A stretch of DNA of 64,000 nt from a virus. Of this stretch, positions 22,366 to 64,000 are shown in pieces (the first letter of the stretch is position 1; each line of letters opens with the position of its first letter). Under the pieces are notes generated by a model. That model saw nothing but the letters and a program-made list of their open reading frames with translations, did no database searches and was not told the origin of the DNA. Both the position numbers and the translations under genes were made by a program. Location of the stretch: the IMG/VR virus record IMGVR_UViG_3300046533_000294, positions 1 to 64,000 of that record; one strand, given 5' to 3'.

Positions 22366-23810
22366 GCAGGCCGGGAGTCGAGATTGCCCTGTTGGAAGAG
22401 CCGCCCGCAAGGACTCCTCCAATCGACACGGGCGTCTTCTTTGCGGTTGGCCCAGCACAAAAAGGGCCGACCAATGCTGCAGCTTTCCTCCGCAGCATGT
22501 CTGAGTTCGAGTCCATCTACGGCGATCGCATGACCTACAGCTATCTGTGGGATGCGATGGACTGCTATTTCAGGGAGGGCGGAAGTCGAGCGTACATCAG
22601 CCGCGTCGTCGGGCCTGCTCCGATCAACGCCACTCACAACTTCAAGGACGCATCGAACGCCGATACGATGACGGTCACGGCGAACAGCCCTGGAGTCTGG
22701 GGCAACAACATCACCGTCCAGATCACTGCCGGTTCGGTTGGTGGTACATTCGTGGTCAACGTGTTCTACAACGGTTTGCTTGTAGAACTCTCGCCGGATC
22801 TCCTTGCCGGCACGGATGCCGTCAACTGGTCGCAGTCGTCCGAGTACGTCATCATCACGGACATCGCGGCCAGCACGCTGGATCCAGCCGTCGTCGCAGC
22901 GACTGCGCTTGTCGGCGGAACGGACGACAACACGAACATCGTCGAGAACAACTGGACGACGGCTTACACCCTGTTCGACAAGGGTCTGGGGCCAGGCCAG
23001 GTCGCAGCTCCAGGCCACACGACGCAGGCGGGACAGACGGCTCTGCTCGCTCACGCAGACGCCAACAACCGAGTTGCGCTCGTGGACGCCATCGACTCGG
23101 GATCGAAGGCAACTCTGAAGTCGGCAGCTGCCGCGCTACAGGGCGCGGTGCCAGGGAATCGTCACGCAGCTCTGTTCGCTCCGTGGGCGATCGTTCCGGG
23201 CATCGTCGCCGGCACTACCCGCATCGTTCCGTGGTCGGCTATCGAGGCCGGCATCATCTCGCGTAACGACGCAAGCATGAGCCCGAACATCGCAGCAGCT
23301 GGTCTGGCGAACGGTCAGAGCGTCTACGCGATCGGACTCAGCCAGCCGCCGTGGATCGACGCCGACCGTCAGGATCTCAACGCCTCGTCGGTCAACGTCG
23401 TCCGGGCGCTGTTCAACGGAATCATGGCATACGGGTTCCGTTCTCTCGTCAATCCTGGCGGCGATCCGAACTGGGTGCCGTTCAGCAACAGTCGCCTCTT
23501 CATGGCGATCGTCGCCGATGCGGACGCCATCGCCGAGCAGTACGTGTTCGCACAGATCGACGGCAAAGGTCTCACCTTCAAGCAGTTCGGCGGCGATCTC
23601 TCGGGCATGATGATGACGTACTTCAACGAGGGCTCGCTGTACGGCAGCACACCAGACGCTGCCTTCTACGTGGACACCGGCGACACGGTGAACACGCCGA
23701 GCACGATCTCCAACCTGGAGATCCATGCAGTGATCTCCGTCAAGATGAGCCCGTTCGGAGAACTGGTTCACATCGACATCGTCAAGAAGCTCGTAACCGA
23801 AGCCGTCTAG
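22362..23810 (+). CDS. Contractile tail sheath protein
   Basis: A 482-residue protein with the sheath hallmarks: MSRPGVEIALLEEPP at the start, TGVFFAVGPAQKGPTNAAAF, the GGSRAYISRVVGP strand, a variable middle domain, and the conserved C-terminal half with PWAIVPG, PPWIDADR and a C-terminal IHAVISVKMSPFGELVHIDI strand that links subunits. It contracts to drive the tube through the envelope and identifies the phage as a myovirus type. Confidence 0.92.
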   Translation: MSRPGVEIALLEEPPARTPPIDTGVFFAVGPAQKGPTNAAAFLRSMSEFESIYGDRMTYSYLWDAMDCYFREGGSRAYISRVVGPAPINATHNFKDASNADTMTVTANSPGVWGNNITVQITAGSVGGTFVVNVFYNGLLVELSPDLLAGTDAVNWSQSSEYVIITDIAASTLDPAVVAATALVGGTDDNTNIVENNWTTAYTLFDKGLGPGQVAAPGHTTQAGQTALLAHADANNRVALVDAIDSGSKATLKSAAAALQGAVPGNRHAALFAPWAIVPGIVAGTTRIVPWSAIEAGIISRNDASMSPNIAAAGLANGQSVYAIGLSQPPWIDADRQDLNASSVNVVRALFNGIMAYGFRSLVNPGGDPNWVPFSNSRLFMAIVADADAIAEQYVFAQIDGKGLTFKQFGGDLSGMMMTYFNEGSLYGSTPDAAFYVDTGDTVNTPSTISNLEIHAVISVKMSPFGELVHIDIVKKLVTEAV

Positions 23811-31093: not shown

Positions 31094-31443
31094 GAAGTAA
31101 GGACGTACTGACTCCCCACATCTCGATTCCCTTCACGATGCTGGCCTGGGGAGTCGGCGGTGTGGACGTGAACGAGCAGGATACGCTGGATGATGTCTAC
31201 GACTGCGTACAAGCGGTCATCCGCTGCCCTGAGAACTGGCGGCCGGAGTTGATGGCGTTCGGAATCGCCGACCAGACGTTCACGCAGAACGAGATCGACC
31301 TAGGCGAGATCGCCGACAAAGTGAGCGTCTGGGAGCCTCGGTCGGAAGTTCTCTACGAGCAGGCCCTGAGCGGGATCACATTGCTGGATGACATCGTCAA
31401 GGCGAGAGTCGCTAGAATCCAGACTGGAGGCTCCAGTGCCTAG
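31090..31443 (+). CDS. Baseplate wedge protein, gp25/gpW-like
   Basis: A 117-residue protein with the gp25-like pattern DVNEQDTLDDVYDCVQAVIR followed by CPENWRPELMAFGIADQTF and a C-terminal helix. These proteins initiate sheath assembly at the baseplate. It overlaps the spike gene by four bases (ATGA), and AGACTGGAGG at its end is the ribosome site of the next gene. Confidence 0.8.
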   Translation: MRSKDVLTPHISIPFTMLAWGVGGVDVNEQDTLDDVYDCVQAVIRCPENWRPELMAFGIADQTFTQNEIDLGEIADKVSVWEPRSEVLYEQALSGITLLDDIVKARVARIQTGGSSA

Positions 31444-32917
31444 TTATCTCAGCCCGCCTATCGAGACTGACCCGCAGATCCTGGCGCAGGACAGCTTCGA
31501 CTTCCTCCAAACGGAGTATCCTGGCTGGATCCCTGCCGAGGGCAACTTTGAAGTCTGGTTGATCGAGTGCATGGCCCGGATGATCGGGCAGCTCCGAGAC
31601 ATCACCAGCCTCGTACCTACGGCCATCTTCAAATACTTCGGTCAGACTTTGATGGGGATCGTCCCTGTCGAGGCGAGCAACGCGACCGGCTACACGACCT
31701 GGACGATGATTGACGATCTTGGCTACACGATCCCTGCCGGAACCCAGATCCAGATACGTGATGCCTCAGGCAACTACTACCCATTCGAGACCAACGTTGA
31801 CTACATCGTAGCTCCGGGCAACACCGTCACTGACACTGCTGCCGTAGGTATCACGGCCGTCTTCGAGGGCGCTGCTAGCTCCGGGCTCACCGGCGATGCT
31901 GAGCTTCTGGACATCCTCGCGTTCGTAGCTAGTGTGACCGTCGAGGGACAGACGATGGGCGGCCAGGATGGACAGACTGACGACGAATACCTTGACCACC
32001 TAGTTGAGCAGCTCCAGTTGATGGCTCCGCGTCCGATCCTCGCGCCGGACTTCGCCGCCATGGCCAAGAACATCGCTGGTGTCTGGCGAGCCGTCGCGAT
32101 CGACGGTCTGGTGCCTTCAGTTAACGAAGTCCAGCGTGTTGCTGTAGACGCTACCGCAGGGACTTTCACACTCACCTTCGGCGGGCAGACGACAGCGGCG
32201 CTAGCCTTCAACGTCACAGCGGCTGCTCTTCAGGCAGCACTAGCGGCGCTATCCAGCATCGGCCCCAACAACGTGGCGGTAACGGGTGGGCCTGGGAACG
32301 CAGGCGCGACGACACCATACAGCGTCACATTCATCGGCACACTAGCCGGAACCAACGTTGCCCAGATGACATCGAACGGGACGCTGCTGACGGGTGGAAC
32401 GACTCACACTGCCACAGTGACCACGGTGACTGCTGGAGTTGCGACTGCGTACAACGTCGAGCGGTATGTGTCTGTATTCCCGGTGGACGAGTTCGGGCAG
32501 CCAGTCGCCGGTAACGTCAGGACGACACTAGCGAGCTATCTCGACAGCCTGCGTGAAGTCAATTTCGTAGTCCCGGTGGTGGATCCGAAGTATCAGGAAT
32601 TTGATGTCCAGGTCGAAGTGGTAGCGAATCCTGGCACCGACAAGGTGGCGCTACAGGCTGCTGTTGTCGCTGCTCTTCAGAGTTATCTCGATCCATCCAA
32701 GTGGGGTGTGCCCCTGAACGACAGCACCGAGTGGCTGAACGATACGCACCTACGCTTCCTGGAAGTTGCCCAGGTCGTCAACAACGTGATCGGTGTCAAC
32801 TACATCGTCAACCTAACGACGGCGCTCCATAACGGATCGCCCAACGTCGTAGACATCGCTATGCCTGGCGACGTGGCCCTCCCGACTGCTGGCTCGATCG
32901 TGGTGACGGTGGACTAA
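31436..32917 (+). CDS. Baseplate J-like wedge protein with an inserted beta domain
   Basis: A 493-residue protein starting at GTG with GGAGG five bases upstream. It has the gpJ/gp6 framework: FEVWLIECMARMIGQLRDIT, LGYTIPAGTQIQI, TVEGQTMGGQDGQTDDEYLD, and a C-terminal VDPKYQEFDVQVEVVANPGT. Between the halves, residues about 231-334 are a foreign beta-rich module (VAVDATAGTFTLTFGGQTTA, then ALAFNVTAAALQAALAAL and VAVTGGPG) of the kind repeated in many bacterial and phage surface proteins. The insertion probably displays a domain on the baseplate rim. Confidence 0.85.
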   Translation: MPSYLSPPIETDPQILAQDSFDFLQTEYPGWIPAEGNFEVWLIECMARMIGQLRDITSLVPTAIFKYFGQTLMGIVPVEASNATGYTTWTMIDDLGYTIPAGTQIQIRDASGNYYPFETNVDYIVAPGNTVTDTAAVGITAVFEGAASSGLTGDAELLDILAFVASVTVEGQTMGGQDGQTDDEYLDHLVEQLQLMAPRPILAPDFAAMAKNIAGVWRAVAIDGLVPSVNEVQRVAVDATAGTFTLTFGGQTTAALAFNVTAAALQAALAALSSIGPNNVAVTGGPGNAGATTPYSVTFIGTLAGTNVAQMTSNGTLLTGGTTHTATVTTVTAGVATAYNVERYVSVFPVDEFGQPVAGNVRTTLASYLDSLREVNFVVPVVDPKYQEFDVQVEVVANPGTDKVALQAAVVAALQSYLDPSKWGVPLNDSTEWLNDTHLRFLEVAQVVNNVIGVNYIVNLTTALHNGSPNVVDIAMPGDVALPTAGSIVVTVD

Positions 32918-55151: not shown

Positions 55152-55181
55152 GAGTCCCTCCTTCGTGGTAGTGGTGGATTA

Positions 55182-55269
55182 GGCCACTAGGGATGATATC
55201 GTAAAGTGGCCTGGATGGCTAGCCAACCATCCCGACCAAAACCCCATGATTACCAGGGGTTTTGATCGG
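55182..55269 (-). repeat. Three successive stem-loops upstream of the AT-hook gene
   Basis: GGCCACT/AGTGGCC (55182-55188, 55205-55211), GGATGG/CCATCC (55213-55218, 55227-55232), and a 14-bp stem with one mismatch, CCGACCAAAACCCC against GGGGTTTTGATCGG (55232-55245, 55256-55269). No T tract on the - strand follows. On that strand the long stem ends 81 bases before the GAAGGAGGG site, so attenuation or processing is more likely than plain termination. Confidence 0.5.
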
Positions 55270-55274
55270 CATAG

Positions 55275-55604
55275 TTAACTCGTCAATGCAAGCGCCCAGG
55301 CTGCACCTTCAGCGAAGCTCTCGACTTGATAGCCCGCTTCCTTGACAGGCTCGCCCTTGTGGAGCAGGTACTGGCGAGTCGTGAGCGTTCGCTCGCGTGC
55401 GTTGTATGGATTCAAAGCGACACGGACGACTGAGAGATCGCCGTTGTCCACCTGGAGCAGCTTCGGATGTTCTTTGGCGACATGTACACAGGCCTCATTG
55501 TGAGTCCCGAGCTTCATGTTGCAGGCCTCACAGAACTTCATCTGTACGACCTTGAGGCCTGGGAACTCGAATGACTGAATCCAACCAGCTTCTGCTTTAA
55601 GCAT
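55275..55604 (-). CDS. Zinc-finger hypothetical protein
   Basis: A 109-residue protein with FCEACNMKLGTHNEACVHVA and KEHPKLL: two Cys, two further His and a Cys in C2H2-like spacing, so a zinc-binding site is likely. The C-terminal part is mixed alpha/beta. ATG follows GAAGGAGGGTCA. Function unknown. Confidence 0.6.
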   Translation of the reverse strand: MLKAEAGWIQSFEFPGLKVVQMKFCEACNMKLGTHNEACVHVAKEHPKLLQVDNGDLSVVRVALNPYNARERTLTTRQYLLHKGEPVKEAGYQVESFAEGAAWALALTS

Positions 55605-55619
55605 TGACCCTCCTTCTGA

Positions 55620-55675
55620 AGTTCGTATGAACTCCGAGCCTATCCGTCGTGTCGGACGGACAGACTCGCAGATCA
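55620..55675 (-). promoter_or_regulatory. Early-region RNA element, copy 1
   Basis: On the - strand it begins TGATCTGC (its TGA is the stop of the gene at 55673) and continues GAG-U-hairpin-G-CUC. The stem is extended by UCCGUC/GACGGA with a U-G wobble at pair 4. Hairpin B (GGAGUUC, loop AUAC, GAACUUC) follows at once, then GAAGGAGGGTCA and the ATG of the gene at 55604. Confidence 0.75.
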
Positions 55676-55852
55676 CTTCGCGCTGACGATCCTGTATGAA
55701 GATGCTTCATTGACGCCGATGATAACGTCTGCTTCGCCATCTGTCGGATTGAGCATCTGGGCCAAATGTGCACGTATCTGCTCAGGCGTTTGTTCGGGGC
55801 CGACAAGCCACTCAACCTCTACTTCAATCATGATGTAGACTGGATCATCCAA
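55673..55852 (-). CDS. Small hypothetical protein
   Basis: A 59-residue acidic protein (EVEVEWLVGPEQTPEQIRAH). TTG 55852 is chosen because GGGAGGG ends eight bases upstream; ATG 55831 lacks a site. Alpha/beta pattern, unrecognised. It is a single-gene cassette between copies 1 and 2 of the early-region RNA element. Confidence 0.55.
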   Translation of the reverse strand: MDDPVYIMIEVEVEWLVGPEQTPEQIRAHLAQMLNPTDGEADVIIGVNEASSYRIVSAK

Positions 55853-55871
55853 TCAGAGCACCCTCCCTTCT

Positions 55872-55922
55872 GGAGTTCTGATGAACTCCGAGCCTACTCC
55901 AATGGAGTAGACTCGCAGCTCA
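55872..55922 (-). promoter_or_regulatory. Early-region RNA element, copy 2
   Basis: - strand: TGAGCTGC with the TGA ending the gene at 55920, then hairpin A GAG-U-CUACUCC, loop AUU, GGAGUAG-G-CUC, and directly hairpin B GGAGUUC, loop AUCA, GAACUCC. Both stems are complete; the U-G wobble is at pair 4. AAGGGAGGG follows. Confidence 0.8.
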
Positions 55923-56435
55923 CCTCTTGATGCTGTCGTATGCTGCTTTGAACCAGTCCATCGCTCGTCCTTCGTCGATGCTGGAGTCGTTGTACTCGAT
56001 GATGAGCGACTCCAGCTGCTCGATGCTGTAATCCTTGATCTCGTCGTCGCTGAGTGTCAGGTCTTCTTGTTCAATCTCGCCGAAGTTGTTTGTTACCTCA
56101 GGCCGTTCGCTTCTCGGAATCGCCAGCGCGAGCGCACGCAACGACTTCTCCAATGCCTTCAACCTGGCCTTGGGGAATTCACCGCCTTTGAAGTAGTGCG
56201 ATGGGTTCTGGATCGTCGGGCAGTATGCCGTCAAGCCCGAGTCCCAGTCGTCAGACTTTGCGATGACGACACGAGCGAGCTTCGCGTTGATGACTGCGAG
56301 GCCGACGGCGCAGCCGTGCGGCTTCTTGTTGCCGTTAGCTTCCGCTTCCTGCATCAATTCGCCACAGAGCCAGTGTCCGGCTCGGATGTCCAGGATGGAC
56401 TCCTCCAGCACGACCTTGGCTGTCATTCTCGGCAT
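55920..56435 (-). CDS. Hypothetical protein
   Basis: A 171-residue protein. ATG behind GAAGGAGGGTCA. N-terminal strands and a helix (LDIRAGHWLCGELMQEAEAN), then an acidic helical half (IEQEDLTLSDDEIKDYSIEQ). No family recognised. Only gene of its cassette between copies 2 and 3 of the RNA element. Confidence 0.6.
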   Translation of the reverse strand: MPRMTAKVVLEESILDIRAGHWLCGELMQEAEANGNKKPHGCAVGLAVINAKLARVVIAKSDDWDSGLTAYCPTIQNPSHYFKGGEFPKARLKALEKSLRALALAIPRSERPEVTNNFGEIEQEDLTLSDDEIKDYSIEQLESLIIEYNDSSIDEGRAMDWFKAAYDSIKR

Positions 56436-56453
56436 TGACCCTCCTTCGGTTAC

Positions 56454-56503
56454 GGTACTCTCATGAGCACCGGCCGGCACCCAAAGGTACCAGCCGCTGA
56501 TCA
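56454..56503 (-). promoter_or_regulatory. Early-region RNA element, copy 3
   Basis: - strand: TGATCAGC, hairpin A GGC-U-GGUACC, loop UUUG, GGUGCC-G-GCC (10 bp with the wobble at pair 4), directly hairpin B GGUGCUC, loop AUGA, GAGUACC. Upstream it is preceded only by a nine-codon reading frame ending in TAG TGA rather than by a full gene. Confidence 0.8.
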
Positions 56504-56580
56504 CTACTTTCGCCATCTCTCCCGAATGATCATCCACAATATACGGAACCAGCGTGGTGACAGAAAGATTGGCGGTTGTG
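56504..56580 (-). other. Short gap with a nine-codon reading frame
   Basis: Between the gene ending at 56581 and RNA element copy 3 lies a 77-base gap. It holds ATG ATC ATT CGG and further codons ending TAG TGA, with no clear ribosome site. It may be the remnant of a deleted small gene of the cassette. Nothing else was seen. Confidence 0.35.
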
Positions 56581-56850
56581 TCATTTGTGGATGACGCCGA
56601 TCAGGCGCTCGATCGGGATGGACATCTGCTTGCCCTTGGCAGGGCCGTTTTTGGGCCAGAACTTCACCCATCGGTTTCCATGTTCGTCGGTGAAGAACTC
56701 GACAGGCATCAATTCCCTCTTGGGGTTTCTCGGCCTGTTTACGGGCACAGTCTCTCGTCTGATAAAGTAGATGGCGTTGCCATCTGACTCCTCGACCAAG
56801 ACCGACTCGACGTTGTCCAAGACGATGTTCTCCTGTGGTGCTTCAACCAT
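56581..56850 (-). CDS. Hypothetical protein
   Basis: An 89-residue beta-rich protein (VEFFTDEHGNRWVKFWPKNG). ATG overlaps the stop of the upstream gene by one base. Unrecognised. Second gene of its cassette. Confidence 0.55.
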   Translation of the reverse strand: MVEAPQENIVLDNVESVLVEESDGNAIYFIRRETVPVNRPRNPKRELMPVEFFTDEHGNRWVKFWPKNGPAKGKQMSIPIERLIGVIHK

Positions 56851-57098
56851 TATGCCTCCGTGAACTTGTGAATCGCCACGGGATCGGGATCATGGGCGTC
56901 GAACAATTCAACACCGATGTCGTCGTTCTCGTAGCGATGGATGAATAAGCCGAAGATCACACGGTTTCCGATCTTGAAGATGAGGTCGTGCTCCCAATCC
57001 ATTCGTTCTGGCAATACCGGGAGCTGGATCGCAGCTGTGACGCCAGCCTCATCATAAGTAACGACCTTGACCTTGAGGAGCTTCGGCAGATTTGTCAC
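56850..57098 (-). CDS. Hypothetical protein, start preceded by a three-codon reading frame
   Basis: An 82-residue beta-rich protein. It starts at GTG 57098, eleven bases after AGGAGG. An ATG three bases after AGGAGG opens ATG CTG AAG TGA, and the GTG lies within AAGTGA. So translation may begin at that ATG, stop after three codons and restart at the overlapping GTG, or the GTG may be used directly. Function unknown. Confidence 0.55.
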   Translation of the reverse strand: MTNLPKLLKVKVVTYDEAGVTAAIQLPVLPERMDWEHDLIFKIGNRVIFGLFIHRYENDDIGVELFDAHDPDPVAIHKFTEA

Positions 57099-57125
57099 TT
57101 CAGCATGACCCTCCTTCGTGTAATC

Positions 57126-57181
57126 GGAGTCGGGTGACTCCAGCCCCCGGTGACCGCAGAGTCAACCGGGAGCTGCAACTA
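57126..57181 (-). promoter_or_regulatory. Early-region RNA element, copy 4
   Basis: - strand: TAGTTGC (TAG ends the gene at 57179), hairpin A AGC-U-CCCGGU and ACCGGG-G-GCU, directly hairpin B GGAGUC, loop ACCC, GACUCC, then GAAGGAGGGTC. The leading stop is TAG instead of TGA. Confidence 0.75.
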
Positions 57182-57514
57182 CCCTGACATCCGTCGTATG
57201 TATGCTTGTAACGGAGTGTCTCTGTTGTCTCTTTGTTCTTGGATAGTTGCCCATCGACAATTACCGGGTTCGTAGTTCCCGTCATTGTCGATTCTGTCGA
57301 TCTGCTTGCCTGGTGGTCGTACTCCCATGTCCGCCAGGAAGTTCTCGAACTTGAGCCAGCGTTCGCAAACCTTAATGCCTCGTGCTCCGTACTTGTAGTA
57401 CGAATCGGCATTAGGATTCATGCAACGCTGTTTCATTGTCGTCCAGATTCGGTATGTGCTGGTAGGCTTTCCACCCTCACAGTGACCATGAGTTATCTGG
57501 CCGCCGGGCTTCAT
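57179..57514 (-). CDS. HNH/AP2-like homing-endonuclease-type protein
   Basis: A 111-residue protein with the conserved layout THGHCEGGKPTSTYRIWTTM, KQRCMNPNADSYYKYGARGI, and DRIDNDGNYEPGNCRWAT. This is shared by many free-standing phage proteins related to HNH/AP2 homing endonucleases, where the final Asn-Cys-Arg-Trp block follows the DNA-contact region. It may be a mobile gene, though its ATGA overlap with the KTSC gene shows it is well integrated in the cassette. Confidence 0.75.
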   Translation of the reverse strand: MKPGGQITHGHCEGGKPTSTYRIWTTMKQRCMNPNADSYYKYGARGIKVCERWLKFENFLADMGVRPPGKQIDRIDNDGNYEPGNCRWATIQEQRDNRDTPLQAYIRRMSG

Positions 57515-57735
57515 CCGACTTGCTGGACTGGGTAGTGCGGCTTGATGTGCTTGTTGATATAGCTGCCAACGCTTTGCGCGTTAGCCGCTACAACAGCACG
57601 TTGGTATGGCACGCCTGTGTAGGCGTACGTCTTGCCGCTCTTGTATGTGACGTACATGATGCTCTTGTCACTATCCCAAGAGATCGACTCGACATTGCTG
57701 GAGTGTGGAACTGGAATCGGTCGTCGTGTGCTCAT
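57511..57735 (-). CDS. KTSC-domain protein
   Basis: A 74-residue protein that is essentially one KTSC domain: SSNVESISWDSDKSIMYVTY followed by KSGKTYAYTGVP and a C-terminal helix (SVGSYINKHIKPHY). KTSC domains occur alone or with RNA polymerase or lysyl-tRNA synthetase-like proteins; their role is unclear. ATG overlaps the upstream stop by four bases. Confidence 0.8.
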   Translation of the reverse strand: MSTRRPIPVPHSSNVESISWDSDKSIMYVTYKSGKTYAYTGVPYQRAVVAANAQSVGSYINKHIKPHYPVQQVG

Positions 57736-57929
57736 TTCGCACGCGCTTCCCCGGCCATAAACCGCTTGGCTGCTTCCTTGGGCTTCATCCCCGCCATGTA
57801 CCAGTCGTGCAACAGATCTTCGTCGCACTCGTCGCGCATGGTCAGATAGATTTCGCCCGTCTCAGCTTCGCGCATCTTGCTGACTTGATCGCCGAAGCGA
57901 TCGCTCCAGTGAGAGAACGTGTAGCTCAT
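57732..57929 (-). CDS. Hypothetical protein
   Basis: A 65-residue helical acidic protein (MREAETGEIYLTMRDECDED) with a KPKEAAKRFMAGEARAK end. Overlaps both neighbours by four bases. Unrecognised. Confidence 0.55.
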   Translation of the reverse strand: MSYTFSHWSDRFGDQVSKMREAETGEIYLTMRDECDEDLLHDWYMAGMKPKEAAKRFMAGEARAK

Positions 57930-58183
57930 GTGATCGAGTCCAGGAATTCTTGCGCTTCACTTGCTGAGCAAGGATTATCCCACTCATCGAACATGTCTCT
58001 AGCTAGCTCCCATGCTGTCGGCAGCCGCTTATTGCGGTACCACAGCAGACAGAGAGCGTCGAGCCACATGAATGGACGCTGATCACCAGGGCCACGCTCG
58101 ACATCTGGGATGTTGTCAAGCTTGATGCCGGCCTCGCGCATCTCGCGCTCAGCTTCTTCCCAGGCGTGTTCGGGCTCGGTCAT
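57926..58183 (-). CDS. Hypothetical protein
   Basis: An 85-residue protein with a helical N-terminus and a Trp/Leu-rich centre (FMWLDALCLLWYRNKRLPTA), compatible with a small helical domain. Four-base overlaps on both sides. Unrecognised. Confidence 0.55.
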   Translation of the reverse strand: MTEPEHAWEEAEREMREAGIKLDNIPDVERGPGDQRPFMWLDALCLLWYRNKRLPTAWELARDMFDEWDNPCSASEAQEFLDSIT

Positions 58184-58383
58184 GTGATCACCTTGTTGGC
58201 CTTCAGCAGATCCACGATCGTCTGGCGGTCGGCGTTGACGTTACCAGTCCGAGCTAGCCAGAGACAGTAGTCGATGATCTCGCCTCGGTTCTTGTACTCA
58301 ACGCTGAAGATCTCCTTGTTCGTGGATGTCTTCACCGTTACGACATGTCCGACACGAGTCACGCTAATGTTGACCTGAGCCAT
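58180..58383 (-). CDS. Hypothetical protein
   Basis: A 67-residue alpha/beta protein (VNISVTRVGHVVTVKTSTNK). ATG overlaps the stop of the upstream gene. Unrecognised. Confidence 0.55.
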   Translation of the reverse strand: MAQVNISVTRVGHVVTVKTSTNKEIFSVEYKNRGEIIDYCLWLARTGNVNADRQTIVDLLKANKVIT

Positions 58384-58913
58384 CACCAGCCTTCTTTCGC
58401 CGCACAAATTGGGCCAATGCCGAGTGCGCGACTGCGCTCGTCGGTGAGCGTCCGTCCGCAGATCCCGCAATGGCCCAGCTCGCGCCCGTAGCGCATGCTA
58501 GCCTCTTTGGGGTCTTTGGCGATCTCCGTCATGATAGACTTCCTGTGCTCCGTGTTCTTGATCGGATAGCGTTCATCCGATGCACGGACGCTCAGGAATG
58601 TGTAGCCTGCCCACTTGCCCTCGGTCGGCTTGTCCACATGGTAGAACTTCAGGACATCGTCCATCGGATCGACCACTGCGTACCTGCCGGCCGGGATGTC
58701 AGGCCAGTCTCGACTGACCTGCTTCTTAGGCAGTCCCTTCATGACGTCAATGATCCGGCTCGCTTCGCCCTTGCTGAGCTTTCGCGTGCCGGCATCGACC
58801 TTGGCGATGAAAGCAGCTTGCTTCTCCGTGATCTCATGCTTCTTGGCGAGATCGTGGAGATACTCAAGCTGATTCTCCGATGCTGGATCCTCTGTCCAGG
58901 CTGTCGTTGCCAT
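58383..58913 (-). CDS. DUF6011-like zinc-binding protein
   Basis: A 176-residue protein. The last 35 residues, CGICGRTLTDERSRALGIGP followed by ICAAKEGW, match the small treble-clef-like zinc domain found at the end of many actinophage proteins (DUF6011 type). The middle (IPAGRYAVVDPMDDVLKFYH) is a beta domain and the N-terminus is helical (ENQLEYLHDLAKKHEITEKQ). First gene of a six-gene cassette, behind GAAGGAGGGCAT. Confidence 0.7.
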   Translation of the reverse strand: MATTAWTEDPASENQLEYLHDLAKKHEITEKQAAFIAKVDAGTRKLSKGEASRIIDVMKGLPKKQVSRDWPDIPAGRYAVVDPMDDVLKFYHVDKPTEGKWAGYTFLSVRASDERYPIKNTEHRKSIMTEIAKDPKEASMRYGRELGHCGICGRTLTDERSRALGIGPICAAKEGW

Positions 58914-58931
58914 ATGCCCTCCTTCGGGTTT

Positions 58932-58983
58932 GGTACTCGGCTGAGCACCGGCCCACCTCATTGCTGAGATGAGCCGCTGATCA
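58932..58983 (-). promoter_or_regulatory. Early-region RNA element, copy 5
   Basis: - strand: TGATCAGC, hairpin A GGC-U-CAUCUC, loop AGCAAU, GAGGUG-G-GCC (10 bp, with the conserved wobble plus another U-G), directly hairpin B GGUGCUC, loop AGCC, GAGUACC. The upstream gene's TGA lies two bases before the motif TGA. Confidence 0.8.
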
Positions 58984-58985
58984 AG

Positions 58986-59165
58986 TCACTTCAGGCATTT
59001 GAGGCAAGTAATGGGATGTCGAGTCTTGACCAGCACCATTGGATGACCATTCCACGGCTTCACGGGCTGTCCGCAGACGGGTTCGCCCGATGAGTTCCGC
59101 TCATGGTACTTCAAGCTGCTGTCAAGACTGGGCGTGATCTGCATCCTGATTTGAAGAGTCACCAT
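58986..59165 (-). CDS. Hypothetical Cys-containing protein
   Basis: A 59-residue basic protein. ATG overlaps the upstream TGA by one base (TGATG). One Cys in EPVCGQPVKPW and two in ITCLKCLK at the end suggest a zinc site. Unrecognised. Confidence 0.5.
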   Translation of the reverse strand: MVTLQIRMQITPSLDSSLKYHERNSSGEPVCGQPVKPWNGHPMVLVKTRHPITCLKCLK

Positions 59166-59353
59166 CAGTTACGCCCGATTTCGCATGCCCGTGTCTGACA
59201 TTCTGGATCGCTGGACTTAACTTGGTTGGCCAGCATCAGAATGTATTGCGGCCCGCCATGATAATCCCCACCACAGCAAGCTGTGCCATCGCTGCGAAGA
59301 CTGTGCACTGTTCGCCACTTTCGATGAACAAGCACTTGACGTGTCTTCACCAT
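59165..59353 (-). CDS. Hypothetical protein
   Basis: A 62-residue protein (MVKTRQVLVHRKWRTVHSLR) with CCGGDYHGG in the middle and further Cys near the end, possibly metal-binding. ATG behind GAAGGAGGGTCAA. First gene of a two-gene cassette. Confidence 0.55.
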   Translation of the reverse strand: MVKTRQVLVHRKWRTVHSLRSDGTACCGGDYHGGPQYILMLANQVKSSDPECQTRACEIGRN

Positions 59354-59367
59354 TTGACCCTCCTTCT

Positions 59368-59419
59368 GGTACTCGGCTGAGCACCACACCCTGCCTTCGA
59401 GGGCAGGATGCGCTACTCA
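59368..59419 (-). promoter_or_regulatory. Early-region RNA element, copy 6
   Basis: - strand: TGAGTAGC, hairpin A GCA-U-CCUGCC, loop CUCGAA, GGCAGG-G-UGU, directly hairpin B GGUGCUC, loop AGCC, GAGUACC. The upstream gene ends in TAA five bases earlier, so here the motif is kept although its TGA is not the stop. Confidence 0.8.
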
Positions 59420-59423
59420 GTTG

Positions 59424-59603
59424 TTATCCGTGGTATTCATTGCTGAGGTGTGAGACGATATGGATGTGAGTATGTACCGGAGCGTTTTCCAGAAGATGAC
59501 GGATGTAGAACGTCGCTGTTGCCAGCTCCGTGAACTTCTTGAACGTGCCTTCGCCGGATTCGCCACCCATCCACACTTCGTACACAACGTGTGGTTCGTC
59601 CAC
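59424..59603 (-). CDS. Hypothetical protein
   Basis: A 59-residue alpha/beta protein (FTELATATFYIRHLLENAPV). It starts at GTG behind GAAGGAGGGTAGC. His-rich end. Single-gene cassette. Unrecognised. Confidence 0.55.
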   Translation of the reverse strand: MDEPHVVYEVWMGGESGEGTFKKFTELATATFYIRHLLENAPVHTHIHIVSHLSNEYHG

Positions 59604-59617
59604 GCTACCCTCCTTCT

Positions 59618-59671
59618 GGTGCTCTTCTGAACACCGAGCCTCACAATTGTCTTTGTGAGACTCGCTACTCA
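59618..59671 (-). promoter_or_regulatory. Early-region RNA element, copy 7
   Basis: - strand: TGAGTAGC with the TGA ending the gene at 59669, hairpin A GAG-U-CUCACAA, loop AGACAA, UUGUGAG-G-CUC, directly hairpin B GGUGUUC, loop AGAA, GAGCACC. Confidence 0.8.
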
Positions 59672-59974
59672 GCTGACTGTTTCTTGGTAGATGATACCTC
59701 TGATCATCGGGGCCCACTCGGGCGAGTCAGGCCCGTAGTTGGTCGCTGAGAACACGTCCATGTCGGCCCTGACGACACTCGGCGTCTCGTTGTCAGCTGC
59801 TGGTTCCTCGGGGTCGAGCTTCTGACGGATCTCTAGCTTGAACATCGGCGTGCCCATGCTGTCGCAGATGATCATCTCGACATCACCTTCGGGAAGTGAG
59901 ACTCTTGATACGAGAGAGAGATCATCGGCAACTTCGAGATACCACGGAGTTGGAATCAGCTCGGGTTCATCCAT
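59669..59974 (-). CDS. Hypothetical protein
   Basis: A 101-residue acidic beta-rich protein (VEMIICDSMGTPMFKLEIRQ). ATG behind GAAGGAGGGTCAG. Single-gene cassette. Unrecognised. Confidence 0.55.
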   Translation of the reverse strand: MDEPELIPTPWYLEVADDLSLVSRVSLPEGDVEMIICDSMGTPMFKLEIRQKLDPEEPAADNETPSVVRADMDVFSATNYGPDSPEWAPMIRGIIYQETVS

Positions 59975-59992
59975 CTGACCCTCCTTCGTTGC

Positions 59993-60044
59993 GGTACTCG
60001 GATGAGTACCGCGCCCACCCCATGCGGGGAAGACGCGCTACTCA
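59993..60044 (-). promoter_or_regulatory. Early-region RNA element, copy 8
   Basis: - strand: TGAGTAGC with the TGA ending the gene at 60042, hairpin A GCG-U-CUUCCCC, loop GCAU, GGGGUGG-CGC (one U-U mismatch; wobble at pair 4 kept), directly hairpin B GGUACUC, loop AUCC, GAGUACC, a perfect 7-bp stem. Confidence 0.8.
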
Positions 60045-60179
60045 TTTCTTTTTCTCGCAGTCGTCACAGATGCCGGCCACGATGTTGCTTCCGGTGATCT
60101 GTGCTTGAAATAGATCCTGCGATGTGACCTGGACGTACTTGAATTTGTGACACTTGGTGCAGTAGCCAACAAGTCTCAT
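60042..60179 (-). CDS. 45-residue zinc-ribbon protein
   Basis: A very short protein beginning MRLVGYCTKCHKFKYV and ending GICDDCEKKK, so a two-knuckle zinc ribbon. ATG overlaps the upstream stop by four bases. Third zinc ribbon of this size in the leftward unit. Function unknown. Confidence 0.6.
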   Translation of the reverse strand: MRLVGYCTKCHKFKYVQVTSQDLFQAQITGSNIVAGICDDCEKKK

Positions 60180-60412
60180 CCTGGGCACTCGCTTTCAAGA
60201 TGAACGAGATCGAGATCACCCTGGCTGTCGATCGCATCGTAGACTCTCAGCCCGAACTTGATGGGCACGCGAATGCGATTTGGCTGGGTTTTCCAGGTTT
60301 TTACCTGGCCGTTCACTCGCCAGCGTTGACACGTACCGTCGGCATTCTTGTAGAAGTCATGATGCAGAACGTCGCCGGGCTTCAACGCCTTGGCTTGTTC
60401 TAGCGTGATCAT
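60176..60412 (-). CDS. Hypothetical protein
   Basis: A 78-residue protein with an ITLEQAKALKPGDVLHH start and beta strands after it (GTCQRWRVNGQVKTWKTQPN). The pattern suggests a small SH3-like barrel. Four-base overlaps at both ends. Confidence 0.55.
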   Translation of the reverse strand: MITLEQAKALKPGDVLHHDFYKNADGTCQRWRVNGQVKTWKTQPNRIRVPIKFGLRVYDAIDSQGDLDLVHLESECPG

Positions 60413-60630
60413 GTCGACACCTGGCCCTGGGGCGAGATGCCGCCGTAGATCGGCTGACCATGATCAGTCCAGTGCATCGTGAAGCACAGATAGTTGTTCG
60501 GCAGATCGAGTCCGCCCTTCTGAACAACCACGTTTTCAAGTTTCGGGTTGTTAAGAAGAACATCAATGCTTTTCTTCTGCGCTGTAGTCATGGTATTGAA
60601 AGCCTCTTGGGTCATCTTGACCTTGATCAC
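60409..60630 (-). CDS. Hypothetical protein
   Basis: A 73-residue protein: helical N-terminus (MTQEAFNTMTTAQKKSIDVL) then strands. Overlaps both neighbours by four bases. Unrecognised. Confidence 0.55.
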   Translation of the reverse strand: MIKVKMTQEAFNTMTTAQKKSIDVLLNNPKLENVVVQKGGLDLPNNYLCFTMHWTDHGQPIYGGISPQGQVST

Positions 60631-61010
60631 TTATGTGACCTCCATGCGACGATCTTGTCTCCGGGCAGGAAGATGACTGGCTTCTCCATCTGCGAGTGAA
60701 GAAAGCGATGCTTGTGCTTAACAACCTGTTCGCCCTCTGTCACCAGGCCACAGTCGCCCTCGATGTAGTACACACCGAATTGGAATGTGACGTAGTGCTC
60801 GAACTCTTGCCCTGACCATTTCGATTCAAGCTTGTTGTCTGGATCGAACGTCCAGGTGCCGAGATCCGAGAACTTCTTGCCAATCTGATATTCTCTGTCT
60901 GGATCTTCATCCATGTAGGCCACGGTGTAGCAGAAGTCAAGCATCTGCTGATCCCAGATGAGATCCTTGCGACGCTTACCCTTCCGCTCCACATATATGT
61001 TGAGTGGCAT
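60627..61010 (-). CDS. Hypothetical protein
   Basis: A 127-residue alpha/beta protein (WDQQMLDFCYTVAYMDEDPD, FEHYVTFQFGVYYIEGDCGL). ATG behind GAAGGAGGGCAGA. First of four overlapping genes. Unrecognised. Confidence 0.6.
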   Translation of the reverse strand: MPLNIYVERKGKRRKDLIWDQQMLDFCYTVAYMDEDPDREYQIGKKFSDLGTWTFDPDNKLESKWSGQEFEHYVTFQFGVYYIEGDCGLVTEGEQVVKHKHRFLHSQMEKPVIFLPGDKIVAWRSHK

Positions 61011-61025
61011 TCTGCCCTCCTTCGT

Positions 61026-61078
61026 GGTGTCGTATGAACACCGACCCACTCACTGTTAGGTGAGTGAGTCGCTATTCA
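61026..61078 (-). promoter_or_regulatory. Early-region RNA element, copy 9
   Basis: - strand: TGAATAGC with the TGA ending the gene at 61076, hairpin A GAC-U-CACUCAC, loop CUAACA, GUGAGUG-G-GUC, directly hairpin B GGUGUUC, loop AUAC, GACACC (one bulged base). Confidence 0.8.
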
Positions 61079-61363
61079 ATCTTCATCCGATCTCAGCTTC
61101 TCTGTGAGCAGTCTATGGATCTCGCGGAGGATAGCTTGCTGATCGGACGGACTGAACCTCTGCTCCCAGATCGGCTTCTTGACTGGCGTCCTGGGTGGCT
61201 TTGCTGCTGGCTGTGGCTTCGGCTTGGCAGTGTACTCGCGAATGTCGTTTTTCCTGATAACATCCTTGATCCCACGACCGTGCAATCGCCACCATGCCAT
61301 GATGAGTGCGATGGTGAACATTGCTGCCGGGATGTCGATGAAGATGAACTTGACGTAACTCAT
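61076..61363 (-). CDS. Membrane protein with cytoplasmic basic tail
   Basis: A 95-residue protein. Residues about 5-24 are a transmembrane segment (FIFIDIPAAMFTIALIMAWW); the rest is basic and Pro-rich (KPKPQPAAKPPRTPVKKP) with a terminal helix. ATG overlaps the upstream stop by four bases. Possibly acts with the following membrane peptide. Unrecognised. Confidence 0.6.
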   Translation of the reverse strand: MSYVKFIFIDIPAAMFTIALIMAWWRLHGRGIKDVIRKNDIREYTAKPKPQPAAKPPRTPVKKPIWEQRFSPSDQQAILREIHRLLTEKLRSDED

Positions 61364-61503
61364 GATGAAGGCGATAGTGCTACTAGGAACACGTACACGC
61401 CTATGATCAAGAGCGCGATCACAATTCCCAACACGAGGAGTCGGGACGCCATCCAGAGAATGACGAACTGATCTTGCCATCGTTTTGGGATCTTGATGGT
61501 CAC
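61360..61503 (-). CDS. 47-residue membrane peptide
   Basis: Begins MTIKIPKRWQDQFVILW and then has a single hydrophobic span (LLVLGIVIALLIIGVYVFLV). It starts at GTG, overlapping the stop of an 11-codon reading frame as GTGA, and has no ribosome site of its own. Translation thus probably depends on ribosomes finishing the short frame. Function unknown. Confidence 0.55.
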   Translation of the reverse strand: MTIKIPKRWQDQFVILWMASRLLVLGIVIALLIIGVYVFLVALSPSS

Positions 61504-61535
61504 CTTACATCGATGCTGTTCCCGAGTGGTTTCAT
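61500..61535 (-). CDS. 11-codon leader reading frame
   Basis: ATG behind GAAGGAGGGTCAA opens MKPLGNSIDVR and stops at TGA overlapping the next GTG. This is the only frame served by the strong site, so it must be translated. It may be a leader peptide that sets expression of the membrane peptide by reinitiation. Confidence 0.5.
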   Translation of the reverse strand: MKPLGNSIDVR

Positions 61536-61552
61536 TTGACCCTCCTTCGGAT

Positions 61553-61606
61553 GATGCTCATTTGAGCACCCGCCAACACACTCTGCGATGTGCCAGCGGC
61601 TGATCA
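61553..61606 (-). promoter_or_regulatory. Early-region RNA element, copy 10
   Basis: - strand: TGATCAGC with the TGA ending the gene at 61604, hairpin A CGC-U-GGCACA and UGUGUU-G-GCG (several wobbles including the one at pair 4), directly hairpin B GGUGCUC, loop AAAU, GAGCAUC. Confidence 0.75.
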
Positions 61607-61837
61607 AATACGAACAGCGATGAAGTCTCGCAGCCTTCCGTTGCCGATTAGGATTGTTGCGATCCACTGGTGGGTGTCGTTTCCTGTTCGGCGCTCGCGG
61701 ATGATGCGTTGTCTGTTTCCCGCAAAATCATGCAAAGCGTGCATCGCGGTTGGTGCTTCGATGACAGCAACTTTGCGGAATGTCCCTGCGCCTCTGCCAT
61801 CGTACCACGTTCTGATCTCGAATGTTCCCATTGTCAT
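61604..61837 (-). CDS. Hypothetical protein
   Basis: A 77-residue alpha/beta protein (MGTFEIRTWYDGRGAGTFRK, VAVIEAPTAMHALHDFAGNR). ATG overlaps the upstream stop. Unrecognised. Confidence 0.55.
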   Translation of the reverse strand: MTMGTFEIRTWYDGRGAGTFRKVAVIEAPTAMHALHDFAGNRQRIIRERRTGNDTHQWIATILIGNGRLRDFIAVRI

Positions 61838-62205
61838 CTCAGCAGAACCTCCGGCCCGAACCAGATGTGGTTCATGACCGTGACGACACGATGTGCGATC
61901 TTATGAGCCATCCAACCATCACGATGAGGGTTGTCTTCTTCGAGGCCAGCGTTCTCTGCCTCGATCTCGATGTTGTCTGTGATCGGCACCATGAGCATCT
62001 TCATCAGCTCTGGTGGACATGCTTCCCAAATGCAAGCAGGGTTGCCCCACTTGGCATCCTCGATCGCAATACGTTCTGCGAGCTTAGGCGTGAGCCCACG
62101 CTCGTGAACGCATTCCGAACAGAGCCATGTTCTGACGATGATGTTGTCGTCGGTGCTTTCCGTGACCATGGTTGTCGGACATCCGAAACACCTGATGATT
62201 GCCAT
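61834..62205 (-). CDS. Zinc-binding hypothetical protein
   Basis: A 123-residue protein whose N-terminus carries CFGCPTTM and LCSECVHERGL, two CxxC knuckles 23 residues apart. The rest is helical and acidic. ATG behind GAAGGAGGGTCAA. Unrecognised. Confidence 0.6.
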   Translation of the reverse strand: MAIIRCFGCPTTMVTESTDDNIIVRTWLCSECVHERGLTPKLAERIAIEDAKWGNPACIWEACPPELMKMLMVPITDNIEIEAENAGLEEDNPHRDGWMAHKIAHRVVTVMNHIWFGPEVLLR

Positions 62206-62218
62206 TTGACCCTCCTTC

Positions 62219-62273
62219 GTTGTGATGAATACCAACCGCTCCGGGGGACAACTCCCGGAGCAGCTGCTAGTCA
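62219..62273 (-). promoter_or_regulatory. Early-region RNA element, copy 11
   Basis: - strand: TGACTAGC with the TGA ending the gene at 62271, hairpin A AGC-U-GCUCCGGG, CCCGGAGC-G-GUU (wobble at pair 4 kept). Hairpin B is degenerate here; only a four-base GUUG/CAAC stem is possible. Confidence 0.65.
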
Positions 62274-62561
62274 CCAGCTTTTGTACGGTGACAGCGCCTT
62301 GACGCGATCGAGATATTCCGAGGCGTCGTGAAGCTGTGTACCTTCTTCATCGCAAGTGTCGAACTGGTCGAACTTGTCGATGAAAGCCCACTCGCCAGCG
62401 TCACCCATGTAGATGTAGCCGACGAGTCTGCCGTCAATCTCGTACACGTAGCACTCGTAGTTCGTGTCGATGTCTGGGTAATCACCAATGATGTCTTTGG
62501 CATACAGCTCTGCTGTGTGCTCTAGATCCTGACGAAACTCAGACTCAGTCATTTCTTTCAT
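62271..62561 (-). CDS. Hypothetical protein
   Basis: A 96-residue acidic protein with aromatic-rich strands (YECYVYEIDGRLVGYIYMGD). ATG overlaps the upstream stop by four bases. Acidity and size are like some DNA mimics, but nothing specific supports that. Unrecognised. Confidence 0.55.
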   Translation of the reverse strand: MKEMTESEFRQDLEHTAELYAKDIIGDYPDIDTNYECYVYEIDGRLVGYIYMGDAGEWAFIDKFDQFDTCDEEGTQLHDASEYLDRVKALSPYKSW

Positions 62562-62761
62562 GGGATCTGCTTGACGAAGACGGCTGCTCTGAACTTGGTG
62601 TCAACGCGATTGAAGCCGTGGTTGATCAGCTTCTCGATCAGACGTTCACCGTCGTCTACGTGAATGATCTTGACGGATTCGATCTCTTTCTGATCGATGA
62701 TGGACACGACTTTCACTTGCTTGTCGCTGACCGGGATCAGTGAAACGCGCTTAACGCTCAC
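62558..62761 (-). CDS. Hypothetical protein
   Basis: A 67-residue beta-alpha protein (VKVVSIIDQKEIESVKIIHV). Four-base overlaps at both ends. Unrecognised. Confidence 0.55.
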   Translation of the reverse strand: MSVKRVSLIPVSDKQVKVVSIIDQKEIESVKIIHVDDGERLIEKLINHGFNRVDTKFRAAVFVKQIP

Positions 62762-62979
62762 GCTGTCACCTGATCCTTTGTGATCCAGAGCTGGCCGGAA
62801 CCTGTGCCCAAGCTGTCGTACGCTCGATACAGCTTCCAGTGCTTATCGCAGCCATGACCCCACGGCCCGTAACGAGTTTTGAAGTCGTACGGCCCTGGTG
62901 TCTTCATGCCTTCTTGATTGCAGAAATCGCAATCGGGAATGCGAGGCACGACGCAGACTTTTCCCTTTTCTGCTTTCAT
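62758..62979 (-). CDS. Zinc-binding hypothetical protein
   Basis: A 73-residue protein with PDCDFCNQEG and HGCDKHWKLY, i.e. two Cys, then a Cys and His, likely one zinc site. Starts ten bases after GAAGGAGGG. First of three overlapping genes. Confidence 0.6.
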   Translation of the reverse strand: MKAEKGKVCVVPRIPDCDFCNQEGMKTPGPYDFKTRYGPWGHGCDKHWKLYRAYDSLGTGSGQLWITKDQVTA

Positions 62980-63002
62980 TCTGTGCGACCCTCCTTCGTT
63001 TT

Positions 63003-63054
63003 GGTGGTTTGAACACCAGCCCTGTCGGATTATATCTGACAGAGCTGCTACTCA
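63003..63054 (-). promoter_or_regulatory. Early-region RNA element, copy 12
   Basis: - strand: TGAGTAGC with the TGA ending the gene at 63052, hairpin A AGC-U-CUGUC, GACAG-G-GCU, directly hairpin B, shortened to GGUG/CACC. Confidence 0.75.
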
Positions 63055-63375
63055 ATACCTGCTTTTCGAGACGAGCTTGCCGTTGTCGAAGCAGAACTGA
63101 TAGCTGCCGTTCTGGCTGAGAATGCCGTAGTAGATACAACGGCTGTTCAATGTGCCGCCGTAGCCACCGACAGTTGTGTCGTCGCTGCTCTGAGGACTGC
63201 CGAACGAGCTTCTCACGTAGCTTTCGCTGACGCCAATTGGCATGATAGCGAAAGCATTGGGATCGACCTGAGCACTTGACTTATCGCTCGCGTCGGTGAT
63301 CCCGTGAAGTGCGAATGCTCCACCGCCTACAAAGAGGCTGAGTAGCAGCAGAATGGTGATGAATGCGCCTTTCAT
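63052..63375 (-). CDS. Exported or membrane-anchored protein, BamE/SmpA-like fold
   Basis: A 107-residue protein. Residues 1-23 are a signal or anchor (MKGAFITILLLLSLFVGGGA). The remainder (IMPIGVSESYVRSSFGSPQS, CIYYGILSQNG, SYQFCFDNGKLVSK) has the helix-helix-three-strand layout of SmpA/BamE-like domains, with two Cys. It may act in the envelope, for example on superinfection. AAGGAAGG upstream. Confidence 0.6.
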   Translation of the reverse strand: MKGAFITILLLLSLFVGGGAFALHGITDASDKSSAQVDPNAFAIMPIGVSESYVRSSFGSPQSSDDTTVGGYGGTLNSRCIYYGILSQNGSYQFCFDNGKLVSKSRY

Positions 63376-63411
63376 TTTACGACCTTCCTTCGTTTTGTTT
63401 TTATTTGGTTC

Positions 63412-63464
63412 TGTGTCTGCTGACACAAGCCGCTACACGTTGTCCTGAGTAGCAGCTTCTATCA
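63412..63464 (-). promoter_or_regulatory. Early-region RNA element, copy 13
   Basis: - strand: TGATAGA (TGA ends the gene at 63462), hairpin A AGC-U-GCUAC, GUAGC-G-GCU, directly hairpin B UGUGUC, loop AGCA, GACACA. The lead motif is diverged, the two stems are conserved. Confidence 0.75.
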
Positions 63465-63782
63465 GTTGACGATACTGTGATCCTTGATGCTGATCCAGCC
63501 GCATTCGCCTTCAATACACATCACGATTCCTCGCAATGTCGGTCTGCTGTCAAGCCCTTCGCCGCCGCCATAGCGGTTGCTAGGATCGAAATCACTGATC
63601 CAGACACAGATTTCATATCCGAGTTGCTCGGCGTAACAGTAGAAGATGATCTGATCACCTTGGACACCAGCTACTGTCCAGTGAGGGCTGACATATTCGC
63701 CTTCATACTGATTGGCGATCCAGTCAGCTTTGACTTCGCGGTCAGTTGCTGTCCAAACTTTTGCTATGAACTCTGGCTTCAT
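63462..63782 (-). CDS. Hypothetical protein
   Basis: A 106-residue alpha/beta protein (FIAKVWTATDREVKADWIAN, IIFYCYAEQLGYEICVWISD). ATG behind GAAGGAGGGCCA. Single-gene cassette. Unrecognised. Confidence 0.6.
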   Translation of the reverse strand: MKPEFIAKVWTATDREVKADWIANQYEGEYVSPHWTVAGVQGDQIIFYCYAEQLGYEICVWISDFDPSNRYGGGEGLDSRPTLRGIVMCIEGECGWISIKDHSIVN

Positions 63783-63798
63783 TGGCCCTCCTTCGTTT

Positions 63799-63850
63799 TT
63801 GTGTTCTGTAGTACAAGCCGCGTCGGTTGTCCACGACGCAGCTTCTGCTA
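63799..63850 (-). promoter_or_regulatory. Early-region RNA element, copy 14
   Basis: - strand: TAGCAGA (TAG ends the gene at 63848), hairpin A AGC-U-GCGUCG, CGACGC-G-GCU, then a weak hairpin B (UGU/ACA) and GAAGGAGGGCC. Confidence 0.7.
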
Positions 63851-63946
63851 CAGATGTCCGACTGCGCGCCCAATGAGTGCGCAGATGATGACGACGATTG
63901 GCGCAGCCGTGATATACGTTGGCCAAGCATCTTTCCACTTGTACAT
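63848..63946 (-). CDS. 32-residue membrane microprotein
   Basis: Begins MYKWKDAWPTYITAAPIVV and ends IGRAVGHL; residues 12-27 form one hydrophobic span. ATG is preceded by AAAGGAAGGTACAC, and the gene fills a whole cassette between copies 14 and 15 of the RNA element, which is the main reason to accept so short a gene. Function unknown. Confidence 0.55.
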   Translation of the reverse strand: MYKWKDAWPTYITAAPIVVIICALIGRAVGHL

Positions 63947-63973
63947 GTGTACCTTCCTTTGTTTTTTATCGTT

Positions 63974-64000
63974 CAAGGCCGAGCGGGTTGTCCTTCGCTC
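63974..64000 (-). promoter_or_regulatory. Early-region RNA element, copy 15 (cut by window end)
   Basis: - strand: GAGCG and CGCUC form the inner stem (63996-64000 with 63981-63985), followed by G-GCC, the 3' arm expected of hairpin A. The lead motif lies beyond the window and should read GGC-U just 5' of the stem. Confidence 0.55.

Follow-up and report, generated by a model that had tools for sequence, protein, structure and literature searches.

The described system closest in placement and copy number to the element reported here is that of the start-associated sequences (SAS) and extended start-associated sequences (ESAS) of cluster K mycobacteriophages (PMC3203893) and Microbacterium phages of cluster EF (PMC7302621). 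Like the present element, these repeats number about 10-19 copies per genome, stand at the start codons of non-structural genes only, have an upstream part of two variable inverted halves that lies in larger intergenic gaps, and are unexplained in function. The halves of ESAS were reported not to support RNA pairing, and DNA binding was favored by the authors (PMC3203893). The element described here is a three-strand RNA structure that recurs at gene junctions in the early region of a 64,000-nucleotide stretch of DNA from an uncultivated phage (the window), bases 1-64000 of the 129,757-base IMG/VR record IMGVR_UViG_3300046533_000294, and in related phages. It differs from SAS and ESAS in being defined by pairing and covariation and in having a third strand, whereas SAS are a fixed 13-bp sequence (GGGATAGGAGCCC or GGGAAAGGACCCC).

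The sequence that does repeat here is an extended Shine-Dalgarno (SD) sequence, GAAGGAGGG in the phages termed A, B and C below or AGGAGGGTACC in phage D, neither of which is an SAS consensus, and the paired positions of the element covary strongly, unlike the non-pairing halves of ESAS. An earlier note on this DNA, made from the sequence alone, had loosely compared the element with the cluster K repeats, a likeness that fails because ESAS halves are reported not to support RNA pairing and because the element is absent from Microbacterium phage Anakin (L030), which has SAS/ESAS-type sequences. The SAS-like GGGAAAGGACCCC sites of Anakin (e.g., 571-652, 9287-9408 and 12473-12554) are preceded by GTAGCGAAAT...GTAGAG-type sequences that lack the three-strand layout.

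Other known systems share particular features with the element. The early mRNAs of phage T7 are cut by RNase III ahead of early genes, in intergenic hairpins that contain an internal loop; these sites resemble the element as repeated, long intergenic hairpins with an internal interruption, and to our knowledge they have no third competing strand. Ribosome-controlled attenuators, such as the ermC, cat and trp leaders, form mutually exclusive helices that share a strand, with the ribosome deciding between them, and two exclusive helices sharing one strand are likewise found in the element. Attenuators differ, however, in being single leaders with a short peptide, whereas the element has full genes upstream, recurs at early junctions and does not sequester the SD. 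HK022 put RNA also presents two neighboring hairpins in an early phage transcript, is found in one or two copies near promoters that are not tied to stop or start codons, and has no shared-strand alternative fold that we know of. Ribosome termination structures (RTS) are stable hairpins right behind stop codons in gaps of at least 25 nt that may insulate neighboring genes (PMC7518266); the element likewise is a stable fold directly after the stop in gaps of this size, and differs in that RTS are a statistical stability signal with neither a conserved architecture nor an alternative fold (PMC7518266).

Anatomy of the Junction Element

The record contains two related phage genomes, A (the window) and B, joined head to tail with a boundary near 64.95 kb, as seen by reading beyond the window and by self-alignment. 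Genome A carries 15 copies of the element on the - strand from 64.0 to 55.6 kb, 14 of them wholly within the window and one over its edge, and all of the copies listed in the earlier note are present. Each copy sits between the stop codon of the upstream gene and the extended SD of the next (GAAGGAGGG or near it) and, when complete, consists of a 5′ leader (S1), a first hairpin (P1), and the 5′ and 3′ arms (S2 and S3) of a second hairpin (P2).

The earlier note had read the leader as a sequence motif, UGANYWGC, followed by two independent hairpins. The leader is instead a pairing strand that matches S2, forming an alternative helix which the note missed, and the element is better described as three mutually competing strands. 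Pairing of S1 with S2 lengthens P1 into a single long helix and excludes P2 (S2:S3). S1 is nearly a direct repeat of S3, but has G where S3 has C, and the S1:S2 helix therefore contains a G.G mismatch adjoining P1. P1 spans 8-19 bp (median 11, mostly 10-12 bp) with an apical loop that is not conserved, and together with the eight positions of S1:S2 it makes a helix of about 20 bp in total, while P2 begins exactly at the P1 junction. In predicted folding, more than half of the copies prefer a fold other than two hairpins; the energy gap between the two folds is -0.8 +/- 2.9 kcal/mol, with 51 of 63 elements within 4, and the folds are thus predicted to be nearly isoenergetic.

The constant identities are G7, G7′ and the G of P1 pair 4, and the remaining positions vary. 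The U.G wobble at this fourth pair, previously thought to be invariant, is so in A; across 48 elements U.G accounts for 30 and C-G for 14. A second hairpin is likewise present in most copies of A, but S3 is missing from three (near 63.97, 63.81 and 62.23 kb), as it is at the corresponding junctions of sister genome B, and the copy at 63.02 kb has only a 4-bp remnant (CCACC). The copies without S3 retain S1:S2 and the G.G mismatch, which makes S1:S2 the more constant pairing and gives the mismatch either a role beyond letting S3 compete or the status of an evolutionary relic.

Covariation of Both Folds

The pairing of S1 with S2 was evaluated on 84 hits, including some noise, that had been selected in a non-circular manner by P1, an adjacent P2 and an SD with start codon only, with no criterion placed on S1. 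S1:S2 pairing in these hits scored 11.1, compared with 5.9 +/- 0.4 when the 5′ flanks were redistributed among elements (z 13) and 6.9 +/- 0.4 when they were redistributed within each phage (z 10). Both folds were also assessed in A6, a gap-free alignment of 48 curated elements. Since the register and choice of rows in A6 favored the mismatch and S1:S2 pairing, the flank redistribution is the unbiased test, and the within-phage version also limits the effect of kinship, of which the A6 shuffles take no account. In A6, with position 7 omitted, 93.8% of cells were paired in S1:S2 plus P1, with a covariation of 0.866 against 0.257 +/- 0.020 when shuffled and at most 0.163 when the partner was slid; for P1 plus P2 the values were 96.8%, 0.859, 0.273 +/- 0.019 and at most 0.210, respectively. 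These shuffle and slide controls, used in place of R-scape, were well exceeded. The outer P1 pairs covary, as described previously.

Substitutions are linked across all three strands, with S1:S2:S3 triplets of A:U:A and U:A:U at position 6 and of C:G:C, A:U:A and U:A:U at position 8. At position 7, S1 has G in nearly all rows and the S2:S3 pair is G-C, G.U or A-U; a G.G or G.A mismatch is therefore kept in S1:S2 while its partner varies, the same S2 base remaining paired in P2. Wobble cells comprise 70 G.U on the - strand against 14 A.C, indicating, as the earlier note had argued, that selection acts on the leftward RNA. Taken from comparative data, the covariation shows three strands forming two mutually exclusive helices, both selected, between a stop codon and a start site. 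This anatomy is regarded as near certain, and on the same comparative grounds the element is a real, new, multi-copy family of phage RNA with three-way covariation.

Position at Gene Junctions

Within the window, the extended SD GAAGGAGGG is found 15 times where 0.6 would be expected, always on the - strand and in 12 of 15 cases within the element region. By our own reading of the genes, a copy of the element occupies each intergenic gap of more than about 30 nt between 64.0 and 55.3 kb, and the other gene pairs abut or overlap. The scan for upstream stops covered the 30 nt ahead of the first base of S1 and the 45 nt beyond it, with gene ends judged by frame length and SD and no gene finder used. 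Of the 53 elements with an assignable gene end, 52 have a likely upstream stop at -17 to +4 of S1, 24 of these at 0 or +1. Inspection of the ten unassigned elements by hand found four in which a long frame stops between -3 and 0 of S1, giving 56 of 63 near S1. The UGA of the leader is frequently the upstream stop, as had been noted, but not invariably so; it is the placement of a stop codon close to S1 that is conserved. A stop-codon read-through or SECIS-type signal was considered and set aside, as UGA is not kept in S1 of phage D, as were DNA hairpins of the REP/IS200 type, since the sequences vary and the wobble is specific to the RNA strand.

Two types of element, both outside the window, have a P1 loop with 9-10 nt perfectly complementary to the element's own SD region (UGACCCUCC; UGUACCCUCC). 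These are found in L016 at 5771-5850 (phage C), in L043 at about 9850-9960 and in L044 at about 3370-3460, and the upstream stop is 38-55 nt away in the elements C 5812 and L044 3422. An anti-SD in the P1 loop was rejected as a general feature given this confinement.

Distribution in Related Phages

A DNA pattern for S2-S3-SD recovered phage C (IMGVR_UViG_3300046517_000603), and alignment of the helicase recovered phage D (IMGVR_UViG_3300047160_005790), whose helicase is about 46% identical, along with 19 further helicase relatives. A custom descriptor search found elements in A, B, C, D, L042/L043 (one stretch present in two records), L044, L050, L051, L053 and L054, such that eight distinct phages besides A and B carry the element, in up to 15 copies per genome; G006, which also holds L054, has two. 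Three shuffled versions of the A region gave zero hits in the same search, and the opposite strands gave few. The structure is thus conserved in distant phages, as the earlier note had required of a functional RNA; with the covariation above controls, neither of the two outcomes that the note would have taken as a refutation occurred. No clear element set was found in relatives L045-L049, L052, L055-L057, L059 and L060, or in the primase relatives G005 and G007 (at best one doubtful element in G005), and six isolates with a related helicase, polymerase, primase or sheath (Yara, Wollypog, MacGully, Gray, Cantare and Anakin) are without it. The element bearers form a single deep clade in the helicase tree (support 93/91). 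No helicase relatives were found in the bacterial genomes searched, and a motif search with an A-like pattern returned a single match, apparently by chance. In agreement with the earlier statement that no named motif is known, Rfam release 15 gave 0 covariance-model hits above the gathering cut-off in the window and six related loci, and nothing relevant at E up to 1. A description of the element was not found in the largely open-access literature searched.

Proposed Mechanism and Alternative Explanations

The anatomy and placement suggest a cis-acting, two-state RNA at cistron junctions of the early transcript, gated by the ribosome that ends the upstream gene, a reading advanced tentatively and given somewhat short of an even chance. 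S2 would pair either with S1, as the long helix with its G.G mismatch, or with S3, as a separate P2 beside P1. A ribosome finishing the upstream gene would cover S1 and the foot of P1 and so force S2 onto S3, while at an empty junction S1:S2 could form, leaving S3 free beside the strong SD. The element would in this way report upstream translation to the downstream start and keep the ribosomes of the two genes apart. Consistent with such a switch are the S1:S2 pairing recovered with no selection on S1, the covariation of both folds, the linked triplets and the near-equal predicted energies, together with the stop codon near S1, the occurrence of elements only at gapped junctions ahead of an SD and start codon, and their conservation across a deep clade.

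Several observations weigh against the switch. In six elements (C 5812, C 8453, D1 2949, D2 9958, D2 14244 and L044 3422) the nearest likely stop is 35-83 nt upstream, a distance at which a terminating ribosome could not cover S1, and the adjacency of stop codons in general could reflect mere genome compaction. Some copies that lack S3 keep the G.G mismatch, which therefore does not serve S3 competition alone. A fold that hides the start or makes a terminator, as in attenuators, was not seen: SD accessibility is nearly equal in the two folds (0.63 vs. 0.71), the segment from S3 to the SD is no stabler than shuffles (z -0.24), and, in place of the U tract of an intrinsic terminator, an A-rich spacer and the SD come after P1 and P2. 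Masking of the SD in one state was accordingly dropped as a candidate.

The strongest rival, though on the unlikely side, is a processing site for RNase III or a similar enzyme, which would cut the roughly 20-bp S1:S2 plus P1 helix near the G.G mismatch and separate the cistrons, with the freed S2 then pairing with S3 as a protective 5′ hairpin on the downstream mRNA. This accounts better than the switch for the helix length, which is near 20 bp with most P1 stems at 10-12 bp, and for a mismatch conserved even where S3 is gone, and it fits the start of P2 exactly at the P1 junction. It accounts less well for the stop codon at S1, which processing alone does not predict, and the 8-19 bp range of P1 means that total length is not strictly held. 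A plain translation insulator, in which a stable hairpin after the stop would block post-termination ribosomes from the next start and P2 would add stability, matches the location directly behind stops in gaps over about 30 nt and the absence from overlapping pairs, following the rules reported for RTS (PMC7518266). Stability alone would suffice for that role, however, leaving the three-way covariation, conserved mismatch and conserved identities unexplained, and it is considered improbable.

Somewhat less improbable than a plain insulator, yet still quite unlikely, is an operator RNA through which one RNA-binding protein of phage or host would control the entire early set, recognizing the G.G mismatch, the neighboring C-G, W6 and the Y.G at P1 pair 4. 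The constancy of G7, G7′ and the P1 pair-4 G among otherwise variable positions would suit such recognition; S3, by contrast, would not be required. One candidate for a trans-acting partner is a KTSC-domain protein encoded in the window at 57511..57732 (- strand; PF13619, E=2.7e-15), a domain postulated to bind RNA (PMC8541194) and with a structure in the PDB (7x8c). All eight element-bearing relatives searched have the protein, which among 15 element-less ones occurs only in G005, itself with at best one doubtful element. As the element bearers are one helicase clade, this co-occurrence is perhaps plain ancestry and is weakened as proof of a partner. A nascent-RNA antitermination element of the HK022 put type, acting on RNA polymerase along the early operon, would share the two adjacent hairpins in early transcripts. 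It is highly improbable, since the copies number as many as 15 and each goes with a start codon, rather than there being a single one near a promoter, and since most stem positions are free to vary. Among the functions proposed in the earlier note, processing and translation insulation are still in play; antitermination and recombination between cassettes are without direct support.

Element Copies in Genome A

All copies are on the - strand and are numbered leftward. Copy 1 (63968..64000) runs over the window edge and was read from A past the window (S1 64012-64006, P1 64005-63976, S2 63975-63968, without S3), with a B copy at the same end found by scan. Copy 2 (63786..63851; S1 63851-63844, P1 63843-63816, S2 63815-63808, SD 63794-63786) also lacks S3, as does copy 5 (62210..62273; S1 62273-62266, P1 62265-62234, S2 62233-62226, SD 62218-62210). 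Between them, copy 3 (63383..63465; S1 63465-63458, P1 63457-63428, S2 63427-63420, S3 63417-63412) has an SD-like GAAGGAAGG at 63391-63383, and copy 4 (62989..63054; S1 63054-63047, P1 63046-63018, S2 63017-63010, SD 62997-62989) has S3 cut down to CCACC.

The S3 sequence is GAGCATC in copy 6 (61540..61606; S1 61606-61599, P1 61598-61571, S2 61570-61563, SD 61548-61540), (C)GACACC in copy 7 (61015..61078; S1 61078-61071, P1 61070-61043, S2 61042-61035, SD 61023-61015) and GAGCACC in copy 9 (59608..59671; S1 59671-59664, P1 59663-59636, S2 59635-59628, SD 59616-59608). It is GAGTACC in copy 8 (59979..60044; S1 60044-60037, P1 60036-60011, S2 60010-60003, SD 59987-59979), copy 10 (59358..59419; S1 59419-59412, P1 59411-59386, S2 59385-59378, SD 59366-59358), copy 11 (58917..58983; S1 58983-58976, P1 58975-58950, S2 58949-58942, SD 58925-58917) and copy 13 (56439..56503; S1 56503-56496, P1 56495-56472, S2 56471-56464, SD 56447-56439). 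Copy 12 (57109..57182; S1 57182-57175, P1 57174-57142, S2 57141-57134, S3 CGACTCC, SD 57117-57109) has a UAG stop inside its S1 (GTAGTTGC). Copy 14 (55861..55922) comprises S1 55922-55915 (TGAGCTGC), P1 55914-55890, S2 55889-55882 (GGAGTTCA), S3 GAACTCC and SD 55870-55861, and copy 15 (55608..55675) comprises S1 55675-55668, P1 55667-55636, S2 55635-55628, S3 GAACTTC and SD 55616-55608.

Self-alignment shows that copy 15 of A (55628-55675) is nearly identical to a B copy near 123.3 kb whose gene junction does not correspond, a hint that copying or recombination of elements between junctions can occur; with just one near-identical pair at non-matching places, a cassette-exchange site was not adopted. 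The last junction of the early region, at 55164-55275 (- strand), has another layout, with a terminator-like hairpin (CCCC..GGGGTTTT) followed by the palindrome GATGGTTGGCTAGCCATC, also found in B, and is possibly an operator or promoter region.

Source Record and Phage

Genomes A and B are about 72-97% alike in DNA across most of their length, B providing a second set of element copies; they may stand head to tail as a true tandem or because assembly joined two strains. Among the proteins encoded by the phage are a large terminase, DnaE-like polymerase, primase-helicase, SNF2-type helicase and tail sheath. The sheath-like protein and a probable baseplate protein, the latter identified by reading only, lie at 22362-23810 (+) and 31388-32917 (+), respectively, and the tail is thus probably contractile. 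No near relative was found among INPHARED phage records, a megablast search against 50,697 phage records giving no match, and the best protein-level matches are mostly to actinobacteriophages at ~29-42% identity.

Significance

Independent control of neighboring early phage genes in one transcript is poorly known, and SAS/ESAS-like repeats of actinobacteriophages have been unexplained in function since 2011. Here, the pairing logic of a repeated junction element can be read from three-way covariation, which makes specific strands and the mismatch testable. The element may, with less assurance than is given to the ribosome-gated reading itself, represent an undescribed class of RNA device in which one architecture recurs at nearly every gene-group boundary and a departing ribosome flips a three-strand RNA, setting the fate of the next gene through initiation or through mRNA cutting and capping, so that the whole early program of a phage would be punctuated by switches. 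If the ribosome-gated reading is true, the element would be a compact natural part for coupling or insulating the genes of an operon.

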